From assembly GCF_016887565.1 (NCBI RefSeq), contig NZ_CP069396.1, forward strand, positions 8,166,001 to 8,230,000: DNA of 64,000 bases, written 5' to 3'. Source of the DNA: Archangium violaceum. Lineage in GTDB: Bacteria; Myxococcota; Myxococcia; Myxococcales; Myxococcaceae. Numbering within the stretch: the first letter of the stretch is position 1; each line of letters starts with the position of its first letter. Position numbers and translations under genes: made by a program. The notes beneath the pieces are model-generated. The model worked only from the letters and a program-made list of their open reading frames with translations. It was not told where the DNA came from and made no database searches. Below are positions 8,731 through 13,917 of the stretch, piece after piece.

Positions 8731-9903
8731 TCATCCCGCATCGAGCGCCTGCTCGAGGTCCGCGATGAGATCCTCGACCGCCTCCAGGCCCACCGAGTAG
8801 CGCAGCAGCCCGTCCCCGATCCCCCGCTGGAGCCGGACCTCGCGCGGCATGGCCGCGTGCGACATGAGCGCCGGGTAGGACAGGATGCTCTCCACCGCGC
8901 CCAGGCTGACCGCCACCAGGGGAACGGTGACCCGATCGAGCACCTGTCTCGCGCGCTCCCCGGAGCCGACGTCGAAGGACACGATGGCCCCGTAGCCCTG
9001 GGACTGCCGCTCGTGGATGGCGCGGCCGGGGTGCTCGGGCAGCCCGGGGTAGTAGACCCGCGCCACCGAGGACTGCTGGGTCAGCCAATCCGCGAGCCTC
9101 CGCGCGTTGCGCTCGGCGAACTCCATCCGCGCCAGGAGCGTCTTCATCCCGCGCATCAGCAGCCAGGAGTCCTGGACGCCCAGCACGCCGCCCAGGGCGT
9201 TCTGGAGGTACTTGAGCTCCTGGCCCAGCTTCTCGTTGGCCACCACCGCCAGCCCGGCCAGCACGTCGCTGTGCCCCCCGAGGAACTTGGTCGCGCTGTG
9301 CACCACGATGTCGATGCCCAGCTCGATGGGACGCTGGAGACAGGGCGTCATGAAGGTGTTGTCCAGCATCGTCAGCAGGCCATGCTTCCGGGCCCACTCC
9401 GCCACCGCGGCGATGTCGGTGATCTTCAGGGTCGGGTTGGACGGAGTCTCCAGGAACACCGCCCGGGTGTTCGGCTGGCGCGCGGCCTTGAGCCTGTCCA
9501 GGTCGGTCGCGTCGACGAAGGTCGTCTCGATGCCCATCCGGCCGAGGATGGCCGTCAGCAGCCGGTACGTCCCACCGTACACGTCCTCGGAGCAGATGAC
9601 GTGGTCCCCCTTGGAGAGCAGCATGAAGGCGCAGGAGATCGCCGCCATCCCCGAGGAGAAGGCGAAGCCCCGGACACCACCCTCGAGCTCGGCGATGGTG
9701 TCCTCGAGCGCCTGGCGGGTCGGGTTGCCGGAGCGGGTGTAGTCGTACTCCGGGGGGTTCTCGAGCGAGGCATGGTGGAAGGTGGAGGCCTGGTACAGCG
9801 GGATGCTGGAAGCGCCCGTGCGCGCATCCATCCCCGAGGCGGAGTGCAGCACCCGGGTGGCCAGCTTCTGGCGGGGACGAGGCGTCTCTTGGAATCGGAT
9901 CAT
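8731..9903 (-). CDS. metC: PLP-dependent cystathionine beta-lyase, MetC type
   Basis: Cys/Met-metabolism PLP enzyme of 390 residues. The sequence follows Bacillus MetC closely: TGASSIPLYQASTFHHA, YTRSGNPTRQALE, AFSSGMAAIS, DVYGGTYRLL, LETPSNPTLKITD, and the PLP lysine Lys206 in VVHSATKFLGGHSDV. MetC would cleave cystathionine to homocysteine, pyruvate and ammonia. Gamma-lyase activity cannot be excluded from sequence. It is the third gene of metL-metI-metC, 7 bp after metI, the same MetI-MetC pairing seen in Bacillus. Expression should follow the leader and attenuator at 13.7-13.9 kb. The TGA stop abuts the end of the convergent J-domain gene, leaving no spacer. Confidence 0.85.
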   Translation of the reverse strand: MIRFQETPRPRQKLATRVLHSASGMDARTGASSIPLYQASTFHHASLENPPEYDYTRSGNPTRQALEDTIAELEGGVRGFAFSSGMAAISCAFMLLSKGDHVICSEDVYGGTYRLLTAILGRMGIETTFVDATDLDRLKAARQPNTRAVFLETPSNPTLKITDIAAVAEWARKHGLLTMLDNTFMTPCLQRPIELGIDIVVHSATKFLGGHSDVLAGLAVVANEKLGQELKYLQNALGGVLGVQDSWLLMRGMKTLLARMEFAERNARRLADWLTQQSSVARVYYPGLPEHPGRAIHERQSQGYGAIVSFDVGSGERARQVLDRVTVPLVAVSLGAVESILSYPALMSHAAMPREVRLQRGIGDGLLRYSVGLEAVEDLIADLEQALDAG

Positions 9904-9910
9904 GGTTGTC

Positions 9911-11083
9911 TCACCGGGTACAGGCTCCGCCGTCGATCTCCCGGCGGGCCGCTTCGAGTGACTGGGACAGGTCGGAGATCAGGTCGTCCACGTGCTCGAT
10001 TCCCACCGAGTACCGGAGCAGCCGCTCATCCACGCCCACGCGCCGGCGCAGCTCCTCGGGGATGTCCGCATGGGTCTGCACCGTGGGATACGTCATCAGG
10101 GACTCCACTCCGCCGAGGCTCTCCGCGAAGGCGATCAGCCGGACGTGGCGCAGGAGCGGCTCGACGAGGCGGGCATCCTTCAGCTTGAAGGAGAAGATGC
10201 CCGTGTTCCCCGAGGCCTGCTTCTTCTGGAGCGCATGGCCCGGATGGCTCTCGAGACCCGGATGGAAGACGGACTCGACGAGCGGATGCGCCGCCAGCCA
10301 GGTGGCGATGCGGAGGGCGTTCTCCTGGTGGCGCTCCATCCGCAGCGCCAGCGTCTTCATCCCGCGCATGAGCAGCCAGGAGTCCTGCGGCCCCAGCACG
10401 GCCCCGATGGAGTTGTGCAGGAAGGCGATCTGCTCGGACAGCGCCTTGACCCGCGTCACCACGAGCCCCGCCAGCACGTCGTTGTGTCCGCCCAGGTACT
10501 TGGTGGCGCTGTGGACGACGATGTCCGCACCCAGCTCGATGGGACGCTGGAAGAAGGGGGTCATCAGCGTGTTGTCCACGATGGAGATCAGCTCGCGCGC
10601 CCGGGCCCAGCGGCAGACCTTGTCGAGGTCCGTGAGCCGCATCAGCGGGTTGCTGGGCGTCTCGATGAGCACCGCCTTCGTCTGGGGCCGGACGTTCGCC
10701 TGGAGCTCGTCCAGGTCATTGGTGTCGACGTAGGTCGCGGAGATTCCGTAGCGGGACAGCACCTTCTCCAGCAGCCGGTACGTCCCTCCGTACAGGTCGT
10801 GTGAGACGAGCAGGTGCGACCCCTGGCCGAACAGGGAGAAGACGAGCTGGAGTGCCGCCATGCCCGAGCTGCAGGCGAAGCCGGCGTCACCCGATTCGAG
10901 ACGGGCGATCGCCTCCTCCAGGACGGCCCGCGTGGGGCTCTTCGTCCGCGAGTAGTCGAACCCCGTGCTCTGCCCCAGGCGGGGATGCCGGAAGGCGGTG
11001 GCGTGATGGACGGGAACGCTGACCGCGCCCGTCACGGAATCTGAAACGGAACCAATCTGCGCCAGCTGACTTTCGATCTTCAT
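9911..11083 (-). CDS. metI: PLP-dependent cystathionine gamma-synthase / O-acylhomoserine thiolyase, MetI type
   Basis: Second Cys/Met-metabolism enzyme (390 residues from the chosen start). It matches the MetI branch: VSVPVHHATAFRHPRLGQST, GFDYSRTKSPTRAVLE, CSSGMAALQLVF, HDLYGGTYRLLEKVL, and PLP Lys195 in VVHSATKYLGGHNDV. It would join an activated homoserine with cysteine (giving cystathionine) or sulfide. Two ATGs are possible. The one at 11089 overlaps the metL stop as ATGA but lies directly against the GGAGGAG ribosome site. The one at 11083 has ~6 nt spacing, so I chose it. The overlap with metL implies translational coupling. No homoserine acyltransferase is visible, so the acyl group used is unknown. 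Confidence 0.87.
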   Translation of the reverse strand: MKIESQLAQIGSVSDSVTGAVSVPVHHATAFRHPRLGQSTGFDYSRTKSPTRAVLEEAIARLESGDAGFACSSGMAALQLVFSLFGQGSHLLVSHDLYGGTYRLLEKVLSRYGISATYVDTNDLDELQANVRPQTKAVLIETPSNPLMRLTDLDKVCRWARARELISIVDNTLMTPFFQRPIELGADIVVHSATKYLGGHNDVLAGLVVTRVKALSEQIAFLHNSIGAVLGPQDSWLLMRGMKTLALRMERHQENALRIATWLAAHPLVESVFHPGLESHPGHALQKKQASGNTGIFSFKLKDARLVEPLLRHVRLIAFAESLGGVESLMTYPTVQTHADIPEELRRRVGVDERLLRYSVGIEHVDDLISDLSQSLEAARREIDGGACTR

Positions 11084-11085
11084 GG

Positions 11086-13605
11086 TCATCTCCTCCCCCG
11101 AACGTTCTGCGCGAGCCGCAGGATGTCGGCCAACACGCCCGCTGCCGTCACGTCACCGCCCGCGCCCGCGCCTCGGACGATGAGCGGGAACTCCCGGTAC
11201 CGCTCGGTGAAGAACGACACCATCGCCTCCGCGCCCTTCAACCCGGTGGCCGGGTGTGTCGCGTCCACCGCCACGGGGCCCACCTTCACGCGGGGACCCC
11301 CGGGCGCATTCGGGAGGATCTGCGCCAGGTAGCGCAGGCTCCTGCCCGCCGCCCGGTAGCGCGCCACCTGCGCGCTCACCTCCGCGTCCAGCGAGGACAG
11401 GGCTCGCAGGAAGGCCTCGGGATCGTCCTCGCGGAGGTACTCGCGCGGGACGAGCGGCTCCACGGCCACGTCCTCCAGCTCGAGCTCCAGCCCCAGCTCT
11501 CGCGCGAGGATGAGGCCCTTGCGCGCCACGTCCAGGCCCGACAGGTCATCTCGAGGGTGGGGCTCGGTGTAGCCGTTCGCGCGGGCCGTCCGCACCGCCT
11601 GGGACAGGGGAACGCCCTCCGTCAGCGCGTGGCAGATGGAGCCGAGCGAGCCGGAGAAACAGCCCTCGATGCGCTCCACGTGGTCCCCGGTGCGCACCAG
11701 GTTCTTCAGCGTCTCGATGACCGGGAGGCTCGCGCCCACGGTGGTCTCGTAGTGCCAGGCGCGGAAGTGCTCGCGGGCCTGGTTGAGCAGGGACTCGCGC
11801 TCCTTCCAGGGACGCGCGAGCGGTTTCTTGTTGGCCGCCACCACGTGGATGCCACGTCGAAATGCCGCCGCGTAGAGCGCCTCCATCCCGTCCGCCGCGG
11901 TGCAGTCCACCAGCACGGGCACGGACAGGCGCGACAGCCGCTCCAGCAGCGGCACCACGTCCGGAGGAGCGCCTCGGCTCGGGGAGACCCCGGCGAGCTT
12001 CGCGAGGGCCTCGGCGGGAGGCAGGCCCGCGGGCTCGAAGAGCGCACGCTGGCTGTCCACCAGCCCCACCAGCCGCAGGGACACACCGTGCCGGGCCTTG
12101 AGCGTCCTCGCGTTCTCCGCCAGCTGCGCGAGCAGCCGTCCACCCACCGTGCCCTTGCCCACCAGGAGGACGTTGATCTCCGTCTCGGTGAGATTGAAGG
12201 CGCTGTGCACGGTGCGCACCGCCACCGCCGTGTCCTCCGCGTCCACCGCGCACGACACGCTGCGCGAGCTCGCGCCTTGCAGGATGGCGCGCACGTTCAC
12301 GCCCACGCTGCCCAGCGCGTGGAAGAAGCGGCCCGCCACGTTCGGCCGGTGGCCCATGGACTCGGCGACCAGGGTCACCAGCGTCACTGGCGCCTGGGGC
12401 GGAGGCACCCTCACCTCCCGCCGCTCCCGCTCGCCCTGGAGCGCGGCCTCCAGCACGGCGTGCGCGCGCTGCGCCTGGGCCTGGGGCACCACCAGGGAGA
12501 TCGACGGCGCCAGCGCCGACAGAGTGCCACCCCAGACGGTGATCCGCGCCGCGTCGAGCGCCTGCAACACGCGATGCCCCAGGGGCTCGCTGAGCGTGGG
12601 ACGCAGCGACTCGACATGGAGCAGGGCCAACCGCTCCAGGCTCGTCACGCTGGTGGGCCGGTGAGGATCCGGATTGCCCTCGGCATCGATGCACGTGCCC
12701 GGCGCCTCCGGCTCGGTGGTGCTGCGGATGTGCAGGGCGGCCCCGCTCTCCAGCAGCGGAATCATCGTGCGCGGGTGGAACATGCGCGTGCCGAAGTGGG
12801 CCAGCTCGAGCGCCTCCGCGTAGGTCATGCGCGGCACGGGGTAGGCGTCGCTCACCAGCGCCGGGTCCGCCGTCATGACTCCGGGCACGTCCGTCCACAC
12901 CGTCACCTGACGCGCCCCGAGCAGCCACGAGAGCAGCGTGGCGGTGTAATCGGAGCCGTTGCGGCCCAGCGTGGTGGTCCTCCCCTGGTGCGAGCGGGCG
13001 ATGAAGCCGGTGACGACGGGCACCACGCCCTTCCACCCGGGCACCAGGGACGAGAGCTTCGCGCGGCTCGCCTCGATGTCCACCCGGGCCGCGCCCGCCG
13101 TCTCGTCGGTGACGAGGAAGGTGCGCGCATCCACCGGGAGGGCGGGCACTCCCCGGGCCGTCAGCGCCCGCGCCACCAGCTCGGAGGAGATGCGCTCTCC
13201 CACGGACACCACCTCGTCGAGCGTGGCCGGCGTGCACTCCCGGGTCAGCTCCACGCCCGTGAGCAACCGCTCGATGGGCGCCAGGAGCTGCTCCACCGTG
13301 AGCTCGTTCGCGGAGAGGCCGGAGCCCTCCAGGGCCGTGCCCGCGATGGTCCTGGCGAGGCCCCGGACCCGCTCCAGGTTCGCGTTGGCGTCCGCCGCGT
13401 CGCCTCTCGCGGCGGCCTGGGCCGCGGAGATCAACCAGTCGGTGGTATCACCGAGCGCGGACACGACGACCGCGAGCGGACGTTGCGCCTCGGTGATGAG
13501 GGAGAGGACGCGCGGCAGCCTTCCAGGCGTGCCGAGCGAGGAACCGCCGAATTTATAGACACGCCAGCCACTGCTCTCGGCGCGTTGCGAGTGTTCACTG
13601 CTCAC
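11086..13605 (-). CDS. metL: Bifunctional aspartate kinase / homoserine dehydrogenase, likely methionine-branch isozyme
   Basis: Fused enzyme of 839 residues catalysing the first and third steps from aspartate to homoserine. The N-terminal aspartokinase has WRVYKFGGSSLGTP, VVSALGDTTDWL and TLGRNGSDYTATLL. ACT-like regulatory modules follow around residues 310-450, and the C-terminal homoserine dehydrogenase starts near LLVGKGTVGGRLL with VAANKKPLA, GCFSGSLGSICHAL and PRDDLSGLDVARKG. The frame opens at 13653, but the GTG at 13605 has an AAGGAAG ribosome site at good spacing and is preferred. It heads the operon with metI and metC and lies behind a Met-rich leader peptide, so I name it metL rather than thrA. 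Feedback by threonine or methionine cannot be read from the sequence. Confidence 0.88.
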   Translation of the reverse strand: MSSEHSQRAESSGWRVYKFGGSSLGTPGRLPRVLSLITEAQRPLAVVVSALGDTTDWLISAAQAAARGDAADANANLERVRGLARTIAGTALEGSGLSANELTVEQLLAPIERLLTGVELTRECTPATLDEVVSVGERISSELVARALTARGVPALPVDARTFLVTDETAGAARVDIEASRAKLSSLVPGWKGVVPVVTGFIARSHQGRTTTLGRNGSDYTATLLSWLLGARQVTVWTDVPGVMTADPALVSDAYPVPRMTYAEALELAHFGTRMFHPRTMIPLLESGAALHIRSTTEPEAPGTCIDAEGNPDPHRPTSVTSLERLALLHVESLRPTLSEPLGHRVLQALDAARITVWGGTLSALAPSISLVVPQAQAQRAHAVLEAALQGERERREVRVPPPQAPVTLVTLVAESMGHRPNVAGRFFHALGSVGVNVRAILQGASSRSVSCAVDAEDTAVAVRTVHSAFNLTETEINVLLVGKGTVGGRLLAQLAENARTLKARHGVSLRLVGLVDSQRALFEPAGLPPAEALAKLAGVSPSRGAPPDVVPLLERLSRLSVPVLVDCTAADGMEALYAAAFRRGIHVVAANKKPLARPWKERESLLNQAREHFRAWHYETTVGASLPVIETLKNLVRTGDHVERIEGCFSGSLGSICHALTEGVPLSQAVRTARANGYTEPHPRDDLSGLDVARKGLILARELGLELELEDVAVEPLVPREYLREDDPEAFLRALSSLDAEVSAQVARYRAAGRSLRYLAQILPNAPGGPRVKVGPVAVDATHPATGLKGAEAMVSFFTERYREFPLIVRGAGAGGDVTAAGVLADILRLAQNVRGRR

Positions 13606-13695: not shown

Positions 13696-13808
13696 GCCGC
13701 GGGGCGCTGTTCAGGTCGGAAACCCGGGCACCCGCGGCTCTTCGGTACGAGAGGTCAGCTTAGAAACGGCTGGAAGCCCATCCTCCCGCGAGCGCGCGCA
13801 TGCCCGGG
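13696..13808 (-). promoter_or_regulatory. Predicted attenuator: two mutually exclusive RNA pairings
   Basis: On the minus-strand RNA, GCCGCGGG (13738-13731) can pair perfectly with CCCGCGGC (13703-13696), leaving a 27-nt loop. Directly adjacent TGCCCGGG (13730-13723), inside that loop, can pair perfectly with CCCGGGCA (13808-13801) in the leader-peptide coding region, where it includes the first base of the sixth Met codon. The two helices cross, so they cannot form together as a simple fold. A ribosome stalled on the Met codons would cover the 5' partner and shift the balance. This is the layout of a leader-peptide attenuator. No U-tract follows, so termination would be Rho-dependent or control would be translational. 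Confidence 0.6.
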
Positions 13809-13864
13809 CCACGCATGAGCATGGCCTCCATGGACATCGGCATTCGGGTGACAGGACAGGACAA
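13760..13864 (-). CDS. Methionine-rich leader peptide of the met operon
   Basis: Short frame ending in TAA at 13760-13762. From the ATG at 13843 it reads MPMSMEAMLMRGPGM followed by RALAGGWASSRF: 27 residues with methionine at 1, 3, 5, 8, 10 and 15. An in-frame TTG at 13864 has a far better ribosome site (TGGAG followed by 6 nt) and would add seven residues, giving 34. The predicted transcript start lies only ~18 nt upstream of that TTG. Six AUG codons in fifteen, in a GC-rich genome, ahead of metL-metI-metC, strongly suggests a sensor of charged Met-tRNA. The peptide would have no function beyond its translation. It is too short and too unusually started to be found by normal gene calling. 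Translation has not been shown. Confidence 0.7.
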   Translation of the reverse strand: MSCPVTRMPMSMEAMLMRGPGMRALAGGWASSRF

Positions 13865-13888
13865 GAGAATCTCCAGACGTGTGGCAAG

Positions 13889-13917
13889 AGGTAACAACAA
13901 GCCCCTCACGCTGTCAA
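13889..13917 (-). promoter_or_regulatory. Sigma70-type promoter of metL-metI-metC
   Basis: A perfect -35 TTGACA (13912-13917) with a 17-bp spacer and -10-like TTACCT (13889-13894) on the minus strand. The predicted start is the A near 13882, ~18 nt before the leader-peptide TTG. It is the only strong promoter-like pair seen in the gap. Confidence 0.6.

Follow-up and report, generated by a model that had tools for sequence, protein, structure and literature searches.

Classical leader-peptide attenuators govern the his, trp, thr, leu and phe operons, and the SAM-I/IV class of riboswitch senses SAM by direct binding. Attenuators of the classical kind are also described in the part of PMC8079986 consulted here, which in addition reports the prediction, in Streptomyces lividans TK24, of a Met/Cys leader named 'metL' before metNIQ. 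In mycobacteria, polycysteine leaderless ORFs (Canestrari 2020) respond to cysteine through translation attenuation, according to the excerpts of PMC9031893 and PMC13236596 on which we draw. For Actinobacteria, a 2005 paper describes Cys leaders that have no conserved terminator (PMC1262725, in part), and the same excerpt reports no conserved upstream structures for the methionine operons of these bacteria. For Proteobacteria, the consulted part of PMC4239095 gives SahR, SamR, MetJ, MetR and SAM/SAH riboswitches as the controls of methionine genes, and a term search of the main text of that paper has no hit for Myxococcales, Myxococcus, attenuation or leader peptide. Exchange between riboswitch or T-box and leader peptide before one and the same gene has precedents in other pathways (PMC2965389, in part). 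Attenuation by a leader that senses Met-tRNA is little documented, with one prediction found in the open-licence literature, and a full-text search of that literature returned no paper on leader-peptide attenuators in Myxococcus.

In this study, we have followed up an earlier note on a 64,000-nucleotide stretch of DNA (hereafter the window) from a genome of 13.2 Mb, in which a methionine-rich leader had been noticed ahead of metabolic genes. Our analysis indicates that this leader is a candidate ribosome-mediated attenuator that probably reads the supply of methionyl-tRNA. By the features tested, with the exception of a U-tract, it works like an attenuator, and we regard it as a well-supported candidate. 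The features of the locus, all on the minus strand and given from upstream to downstream, are as follows.

13912..13917, minus strand: perfect -35 element TTGACA, present in 10/10 homologous leaders
13889..13894, minus strand: weak -10-like hexamer TTACCT, 17 nt from the -35
13871..13877, minus strand: Shine-Dalgarno-like TCTGGAG, identical in 6/6 Archangium leaders
13760..13864, minus strand: Met-rich leader ORF with TTG start, 34 amino acids and a stop; homologues in 10 genomes including this one
13799..13843, minus strand: six AUG codons in 15 (codons 8, 10, 12, 15, 17 and 22), the proposed regulatory codons
13807..13826, minus strand: hairpin P0 (segment 1), GGCCAUGC-UCAU-GCGUGGCC, which competes with 2:3; z = -1.6
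13800..13808, minus strand: segment 2, CCCGGGCAU, first 7 nt invariant in 10/10; pairs with segment 3
13731..13738, minus strand: 5' arm of the 3:4 hairpin, GCCGCGGG, inside a 21-nt invariant run; hairpin z = -2.2
13723..13731, minus strand: segment 3, GUGCCCGGG; 2:3 is the proposed antiterminator
13696..13703, minus strand: 3' arm of the 3:4 hairpin (segment 4), CCCGCGGC, arm kept in 7/10; 3:4 is the proposed terminator-like hairpin
11086..13605, minus strand: aspartate kinase/homoserine dehydrogenase (AK-HSD), first operon gene; NCBIfam NF006959, 746.9 bits against a cut-off of 726
9911..11089, minus strand: PLP enzyme of Cys/Met metabolism (cystathionine synthase/lyase family); best model NF006095, 522 bits, cut-off 585 missed
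8731..9903, minus strand: PLP enzyme, cystathionine beta-lyase-like; best model NF005976, 588.4 bits, cut-off 627 missed

The leader precedes the biosynthetic operon of its own amino acid, composed of AK-HSD and two PLP enzymes of the Cys/Met family. The genes had been named metL-metI-metC in the earlier note. The first gene passes the cut-off of the NCBIfam model for aspartate kinase/homoserine dehydrogenase I and stays below that of type II (532.1 against 582), both PLP genes fall below the cut-offs of their best models, and the triple name is for that reason a working name. The consensus-like promoter described there is perfect in its -35 element but weak in its -10, where TTACCT matches TATAAT at two of six positions, and a promoter scan of the window called none. 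All ten homologues have TTGACA, 17 nt and then a hexamer that begins TTA or TAT. The short frame itself (13760-13864, minus strand), which translates as LSCPVTRMPMSMEAMLMRGPGMRALAGGWASSRF*, is as had been reported, with TCTGGAG 6 nt before the TTG start at 13862-13864, and its six Met in 15 codons make it the sole such case among the 104,604 open 15-codon stretches in the six frames of the window. In the fetched loci, with overlapping loci counted in, 45 of 1,218,083 stretches reach six Met, 31 of them from loci with a metL-type leader and 14 from two loci without it, L038 and L105. Each of these two loci has seven 15-codon windows with at least six Met, perhaps the same stretch of a single genome. 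Searches of Pfam and NCBIfam with the leader gave zero matches, and Rfam at gathering score gave none in the window or in the loci L040, L041, L054, L055 and L056, so that no curated model assigns the leader to the SAM/SAH riboswitches or T-boxes at that score.

A lack of conservation of the Met-rich frame or of the paired segments in relatives had been named beforehand as the finding that would speak against the proposal. On the contrary, the leader is conserved in 10 genomes of four genera, the only carriers of the metL type among the genomes searched. A 32-nt pattern (up to three mismatches) occurs once each in 7 of 96 family genomes, namely the six Archangium and G001, with zero matches of the reversed control in the same 96; a search at the DNA level through the order (145 genomes) brings in G045, G081 and G082; and a peptide profile run over 195 genomes of the phylum recovers the same ten and 12 others, all of which were inspected and look like chance. 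Inspection of the weak matches of the DNA search covered 17 of 23 new loci (6 loci and the matches without a locus, at E 2e-4 or higher, lie outside it): 14 look like chance, and the three in G045, G081 and G082 are true. Loci from metagenome-assembled genomes with the order metY, metX-like, metL (L034, L038 and L039), as well as L035, are without the leader. In Archangium, AK-HSD follows directly after the leader. In the other four genomes the leader heads metY, with AK-HSD further down; the order in G045 is metY (above the TIGR01326 cut-off), a MetX-like gene (below its cut-off) and AK-HSD.

When the six Archangium leaders are aligned, two stretches without a change exceed all others in length: one of 57 nt, which covers the Met codons, hairpin P0 and segment 2 with wobble bases included, and one of 21 nt (GCCGCGGGTGCCCGGGTTTCC), which covers the 5' arm of 3:4 and segment 3. 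In the downstream gene the longest invariant run is at most 23 nt in the same six, and 372 of 672 codons identical in amino acid (Met and Trp left out) are also identical as codons; by this comparison the leader is constrained as RNA and not as a reading frame alone. Upstream, the fraction of identical columns is 0.17-0.40 per 40-column window, a six-genome figure lowered by G006, whose upstream DNA differs, and it rises to 1.0 over the Met codons. The ribosome site and start position are kept in all six, with TTG in two and GTG in four. At the peptide level, E-A-M-x-M-R-G-P-G-x-R-x-x-A is common to 8/8 aligned sequences, and G004, outside this alignment, carries the MRGPG-containing motif. 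The four leaders from outside Archangium end in a Cys cluster (ECCPSCCR, ECCCGCRI, ECCRRCC and ECCRCC), in which TGT is used for 13 of 16 Cys codons versus 1 of 18 in the AK-HSD genes of the same genomes; in Archangium, which is without this tail, the frame is shifted by a 1-nt difference after the core or meets an immediate stop. Between G081 and G082 there are two 3-nt indels, and the frame is kept.

Two crossing 8-bp pairings had been described downstream of the start, one of them including the last Met codon, and both are present. Pairing 1 joins 13800-13808 (CCCGGGCAT) to 13723-13731 (GTGCCCGGG), reaches 9 bp through a terminal U-G and contains the AU of the last AUG, which lies in segment 2. 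Pairing 2 joins 13731-13738 to 13696-13703, so that the two cross in order with one base in common, and in the predicted fold of the window leader pairing 1 runs on into the 5' arm of pairing 2. Upstream of these, both arms of P0 (GGCCAUGC-NCAU-GCGUGGCC) are identical in 10/10; the single loop base that varies switches Leu to His or Arg. The Arg codon in P0 is CGU, one of the rarer choices (12 of 146 CGN codons in four genes of the window); it is retained, and it provides the U that pairs with A. From the core start to segment 3 (GCCCGGG), the distance is 98-101 nt in every one of the ten. As for the co-variation in relatives that the earlier note proposed to look for, the Met frame and the arms of 2:3 do recur, but covariation across the leaders is scant. 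In the 2:3 helix, 96.7% of 90 cells pair over the ten leaders; G081 and G082 share the one double change, from A-U to G-C, and a 2:3 score as high is reached by 16 of 500 shuffles, so that support from covariation is modest. The partner of segment 3 in 3:4 as first described is kept in seven of ten, but it is a different one in G045, G081 and G082; every one of the ten nevertheless has a downstream pairing of segment 3 whose mean probability is 0.71 or higher at some ribosome positions at least. Against shuffles, the stability of 3:4 in three metL-type leaders gives z of -2.2, -1.1 and -0.2, the latter two not clearly more stable, and the shuffle test is a poor one for G001 because its stretch stopped before the 3' arm.

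Using pair probabilities at equilibrium and 30 C, with 30 nt masked by the ribosome (A-site -16 to +13, an assumed footprint), we explored how these pairings would depend on the codon being read. In an RNA that ends after segment 3, the probability of 2:3 is 0.94-1.00 in 10/10 leaders when the A-site holds Met codon 10, 12 or 15 (10 or 15 in G045, 12 or 17 in G081, 16 in G082); two codons beyond the last favourable Met it falls to 0-0.09 in all ten, and it stays low for at least 10 codons. As stall sites, the AUG codons 17 and 22 would be of no help to 2:3 in this short-RNA model. In the model, the block of 2:3 by a ribosome that covers segment 2 is simple geometry. The short RNA also forms 2:3 at a probability of at least 0.43 in seven of ten leaders without a ribosome (range among genomes 0.00-0.90), and in five of ten with the ribosome at the stop, and the off state therefore depends on segment 4 winning. 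At full length, 9/10 leaders have at least one Met codon at which 2:3 passes 0.5 (in G005, Met codon 10 alone), and G001 reaches no more than 0.29; for G001 and G045, the codons were counted here from a TTG that lies three codons further upstream. With the ribosome at the stop, 3:4 is favoured in 9/10. The exception is G082, in which 2:3 is preferred both then and on an RNA that carries no ribosome. Stalls on Cys codons favour 2:3 in G001 (0.85-0.88, against 0.00 at the stop) and are no different from the stop in G082. In silico, the conserved and mutually exclusive pairings are balanced by ribosome position, with exceptions in G001, in G082 and in weak off states. As modelled, this folding balance is what a classical attenuator should show, and the invariant Met of 'EAM' would be the last site at which a stall is of use.

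Based on our results, we infer that the leader is translated, that it responds to methionine and that expression is stopped at an early step, in the following way. A ribosome would translate the Met-rich ORF as RNA polymerase transcribes the leader. When charged Met-tRNA is scarce, the ribosome would wait on the AUG codons up to codon 15 and cover segment 1; segment 2 would be left free to pair with segment 3, 3:4 would be blocked, and the operon of AK-HSD and PLP enzymes would be expressed. When Met-tRNA is ample, the ribosome would proceed and either cover segment 2 or later let segment 1 re-form, upon which 3:4 could form and expression would stop early, probably with help from Rho because 3:4 is not followed by a U-tract; an unusual terminator or control at translation may serve instead. 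The initiator tRNA should be affected by methionine starvation as well, which makes the mechanism of a leader that stalls on AUG a genuine puzzle; in addition, shortage might make initiation on the leader itself slower.

The window leader appears, from comparison of related loci, to be one of a family-wide set of sulfur leaders and not a lone case. A short Met/Cys ORF lies ahead of metY in 32 of 50 loci, for example MFVTSAMCMCSMPVPGGPKPAAAG and, in the window's own genome, MNSVPFASCRMRMPSGGRQPAAG. The other 18 comprise four with a metL-type leader, two with a SAM-I/IV riboswitch, two cut by a contig end (G016 and G022) and ten with neither a leader nor a riboswitch (three g26 genomes, and G085 with six of family f3). 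In 31 of these metY leaders (alignment A3, which leaves out G026), 131 of 697 internal residues are Met or Cys (82 Met, 49 Cys), with zero internal Cys in G006 and G031. GGUGGGC in the ORF complements GCCCACC, the 5' arm of a strong downstream hairpin, in 31/31 aligned, and both helices pair in every counted cell, although such counts are uninformative because the helices hardly vary. A partly T-rich tail follows the hairpin, which has z = -3.0 in the window's own genome, and the hairpin pattern is found in 44 of 96 family genomes and in none of the control. The sequence GTCG is invariant immediately after this hairpin in 31/31 leaders of A3, and at L111 (G026) the leader ORF is there and the hairpin is missing. 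Full-length metY leaders form the hairpin whatever the position of the ribosome in seven of nine tested, that is, with no switch; in the short RNA the pairing forms without a ribosome in 6/11 and at the stop in 5/11.

A third group, of Cys-rich leaders, precedes the gene of a sulfate-binding protein in 12 of 30 related loci, as counted with a crude filter that requires two Cys in a span of four residues close to the stop; CCCC occurs in seven of the 12. A second copy of the hairpin in G002 lies before such a gene, with the leader MKVCCRRSTGVGARPPEA* and the T-rich tail TTTTGATTTT. Cys-rich ORFs and a terminator-like hairpin lie before a sulfate ABC transporter substrate-binding protein at L163:190-450 (G002) and L169 (G000), and the CCCC leaders come from other genera. 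Palindromes such as TCCGCCATAACGGA, perhaps operators of a transcription factor, lie near promoters of metY or the sulfate gene in L133, L125 and L169; related ones stand upstream of metY in L034, L038 and L039, and by eye there are none before the operon of the window. From the composition of the leaders operon by operon, the codon mix tracks the pathway: Cys at sulfate uptake, Met and Cys at metY, Met with or without Cys at AK-HSD.

The SAM-I/IV riboswitch (RF01725) gave 35 matches in 34 of 96 genomes, of which 30 sit 275-329 nt before the closest homologue of AK-HSD (56-57% identity; genera g4, g6 and g19) and those of G041 and G080 precede metY. Two matches in G051 and one in G091 lie elsewhere, and L153-L162, from several genera, carry such riboswitches ahead of AK-HSD or metY. 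The ten Met-leader genomes have no match, under strict filters that can lose weak ones. In genomes such as G056 and G067 a riboswitch stands before AK-HSD and a Met/Cys leader before metY, so the two devices coexist. From best hits, we infer that the AK-HSD genes behind riboswitch and leader are orthologous.

The manner in which expression would stop bears on a rival arrangement, in which translation of the leader gates access of Rho, or translation of the first gene, and the Met codons sense without any 2:3/3:4 switch. The earlier note had remarked on a missing U-tract, and rightly: it is absent after 3:4 in all ten leaders, whose longest T run is 2-4, a terminator scan of the window called none, and the locus does not belong with the classical Rho-independent attenuators, in which a G+C-rich hairpin is followed by a U-tract. 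In the 80 nt past 3:4, C exceeds G in 10/10 (C 333 and G 206 of 800), a bias that would fit Rho; moreover, the Cys leaders of Actinobacteria are likewise without terminators, and the consulted part of PMC1262725 proposes Rho for them. We nevertheless consider this arrangement unlikely on the whole, since pure Rho control needs neither the near-fixed spacing of segments 2 and 3 nor their one compensatory pair, and since the first gene starts about 90 nt past the 3:4 hairpin. Improbable in our view is a new metabolite riboswitch, for SAM, SAH or methionine, that happens to contain an open frame. The 57 invariant nt with their wobble bases, the pseudoknot-like order of pairing and the SAM-I/IV riboswitches before the closest gene in relatives would all suit it. 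It is opposed by the lack of an Rfam match at gathering score, by the start codon, the Shine-Dalgarno and the two in-frame 3-nt indels, by Met and Cys codons that track the pathway in three operons with dissimilar leader sequences, and by the sole variable loop base of P0, which alters the amino acid (Leu, His or Arg).

Arrest motifs of the RAGP/RAPP type offer a comparison for MRGPG, and the invariance of E-A-M-x-M-R-G-P-G-x-R in 8/8 aligned peptides could mean that the nascent peptide stalls the ribosome on a metabolite. The invariant residues, however, largely coincide with paired nucleotides, being dictated by the 3' arm of P0 and segment 2, and no such motif is seen in the printed metY and sulfate leaders, which makes arrest a slim prospect, a shade slimmer than the riboswitch. 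Exact conservation across species might also be that of a DNA operator or of a small functional protein with incidental Met richness; this is very improbable indeed, given that Pfam and NCBIfam show no match, that what is conserved goes with the RNA pairings and with segment 3 at a distance, and that the C-terminal part differs from genus to genus or is lost.

Attenuation by ribosome position is therefore the reading that we carry forward, and a broader form of it may, tentatively, be put to the family. There could be graded sulfur attenuation in these myxobacteria, in which the codon mix of the leader is the setting of the sensor (mainly Cys at sulfate uptake, Met and Cys at metY, and Met alone or Met then a Cys tail at AK-HSD), a single leader could read two amino acids in series (as in G001, where Met and Cys stalls both allow 2:3 and the stop does not), and this system and the SAM-I/IV riboswitch could have replaced one another before the same gene in evolution. 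The interest of the locus lies in its amino acid, in the family-wide sulfur set, which supplies candidate sulfur attenuators in myxobacteria, and in the exchange with the SAM riboswitch.

In comparison with known systems, the leader has, like the classical attenuators, a short ORF in which codons for the pathway product are frequent, 2:3 and 3:4 pairings that exclude each other and a position ahead of a biosynthetic operon, but differs in its Met codons, in the lack of a U-tract after 3:4 and in its myxobacterial host. The S. lividans 'metL', as given in the consulted part of PMC8079986, is also a predicted Met/Cys leader (...GARCMCRRMCAF*) with methionine-linked genes and no typical terminator; unlike ours, it comes from one species, is leaderless, precedes a transporter operon and encodes a peptide that is not alike, and neither homologues nor alternative pairings appear in that part of the text. 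The earlier note had held a Met-sensing leader in a myxobacterium to be a new case; because of this prediction, novelty is limited to, at most, the phylum and biosynthetic operons within the open-licence literature searched. Like the polycysteine ORFs of mycobacteria, as far as the excerpts describe them, the leader is a short ORF that would sense a sulfur amino acid, and four of the ten metL-type leaders resemble them further in a Cys-cluster end and a start 8-12 nt after a -10-like hexamer; those ORFs read cysteine, whereas here we find Met codons and conserved 2:3/3:4 pairings. Finally, the SAM-I/IV riboswitch heads the closest homologous gene in related genera and binds SAM directly, whereas the leader would sense the charged tRNA. 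With either the derivative or the charged tRNA as the likely signal at the closest gene, a direct comparison of two sensing logics becomes possible in related bacteria.
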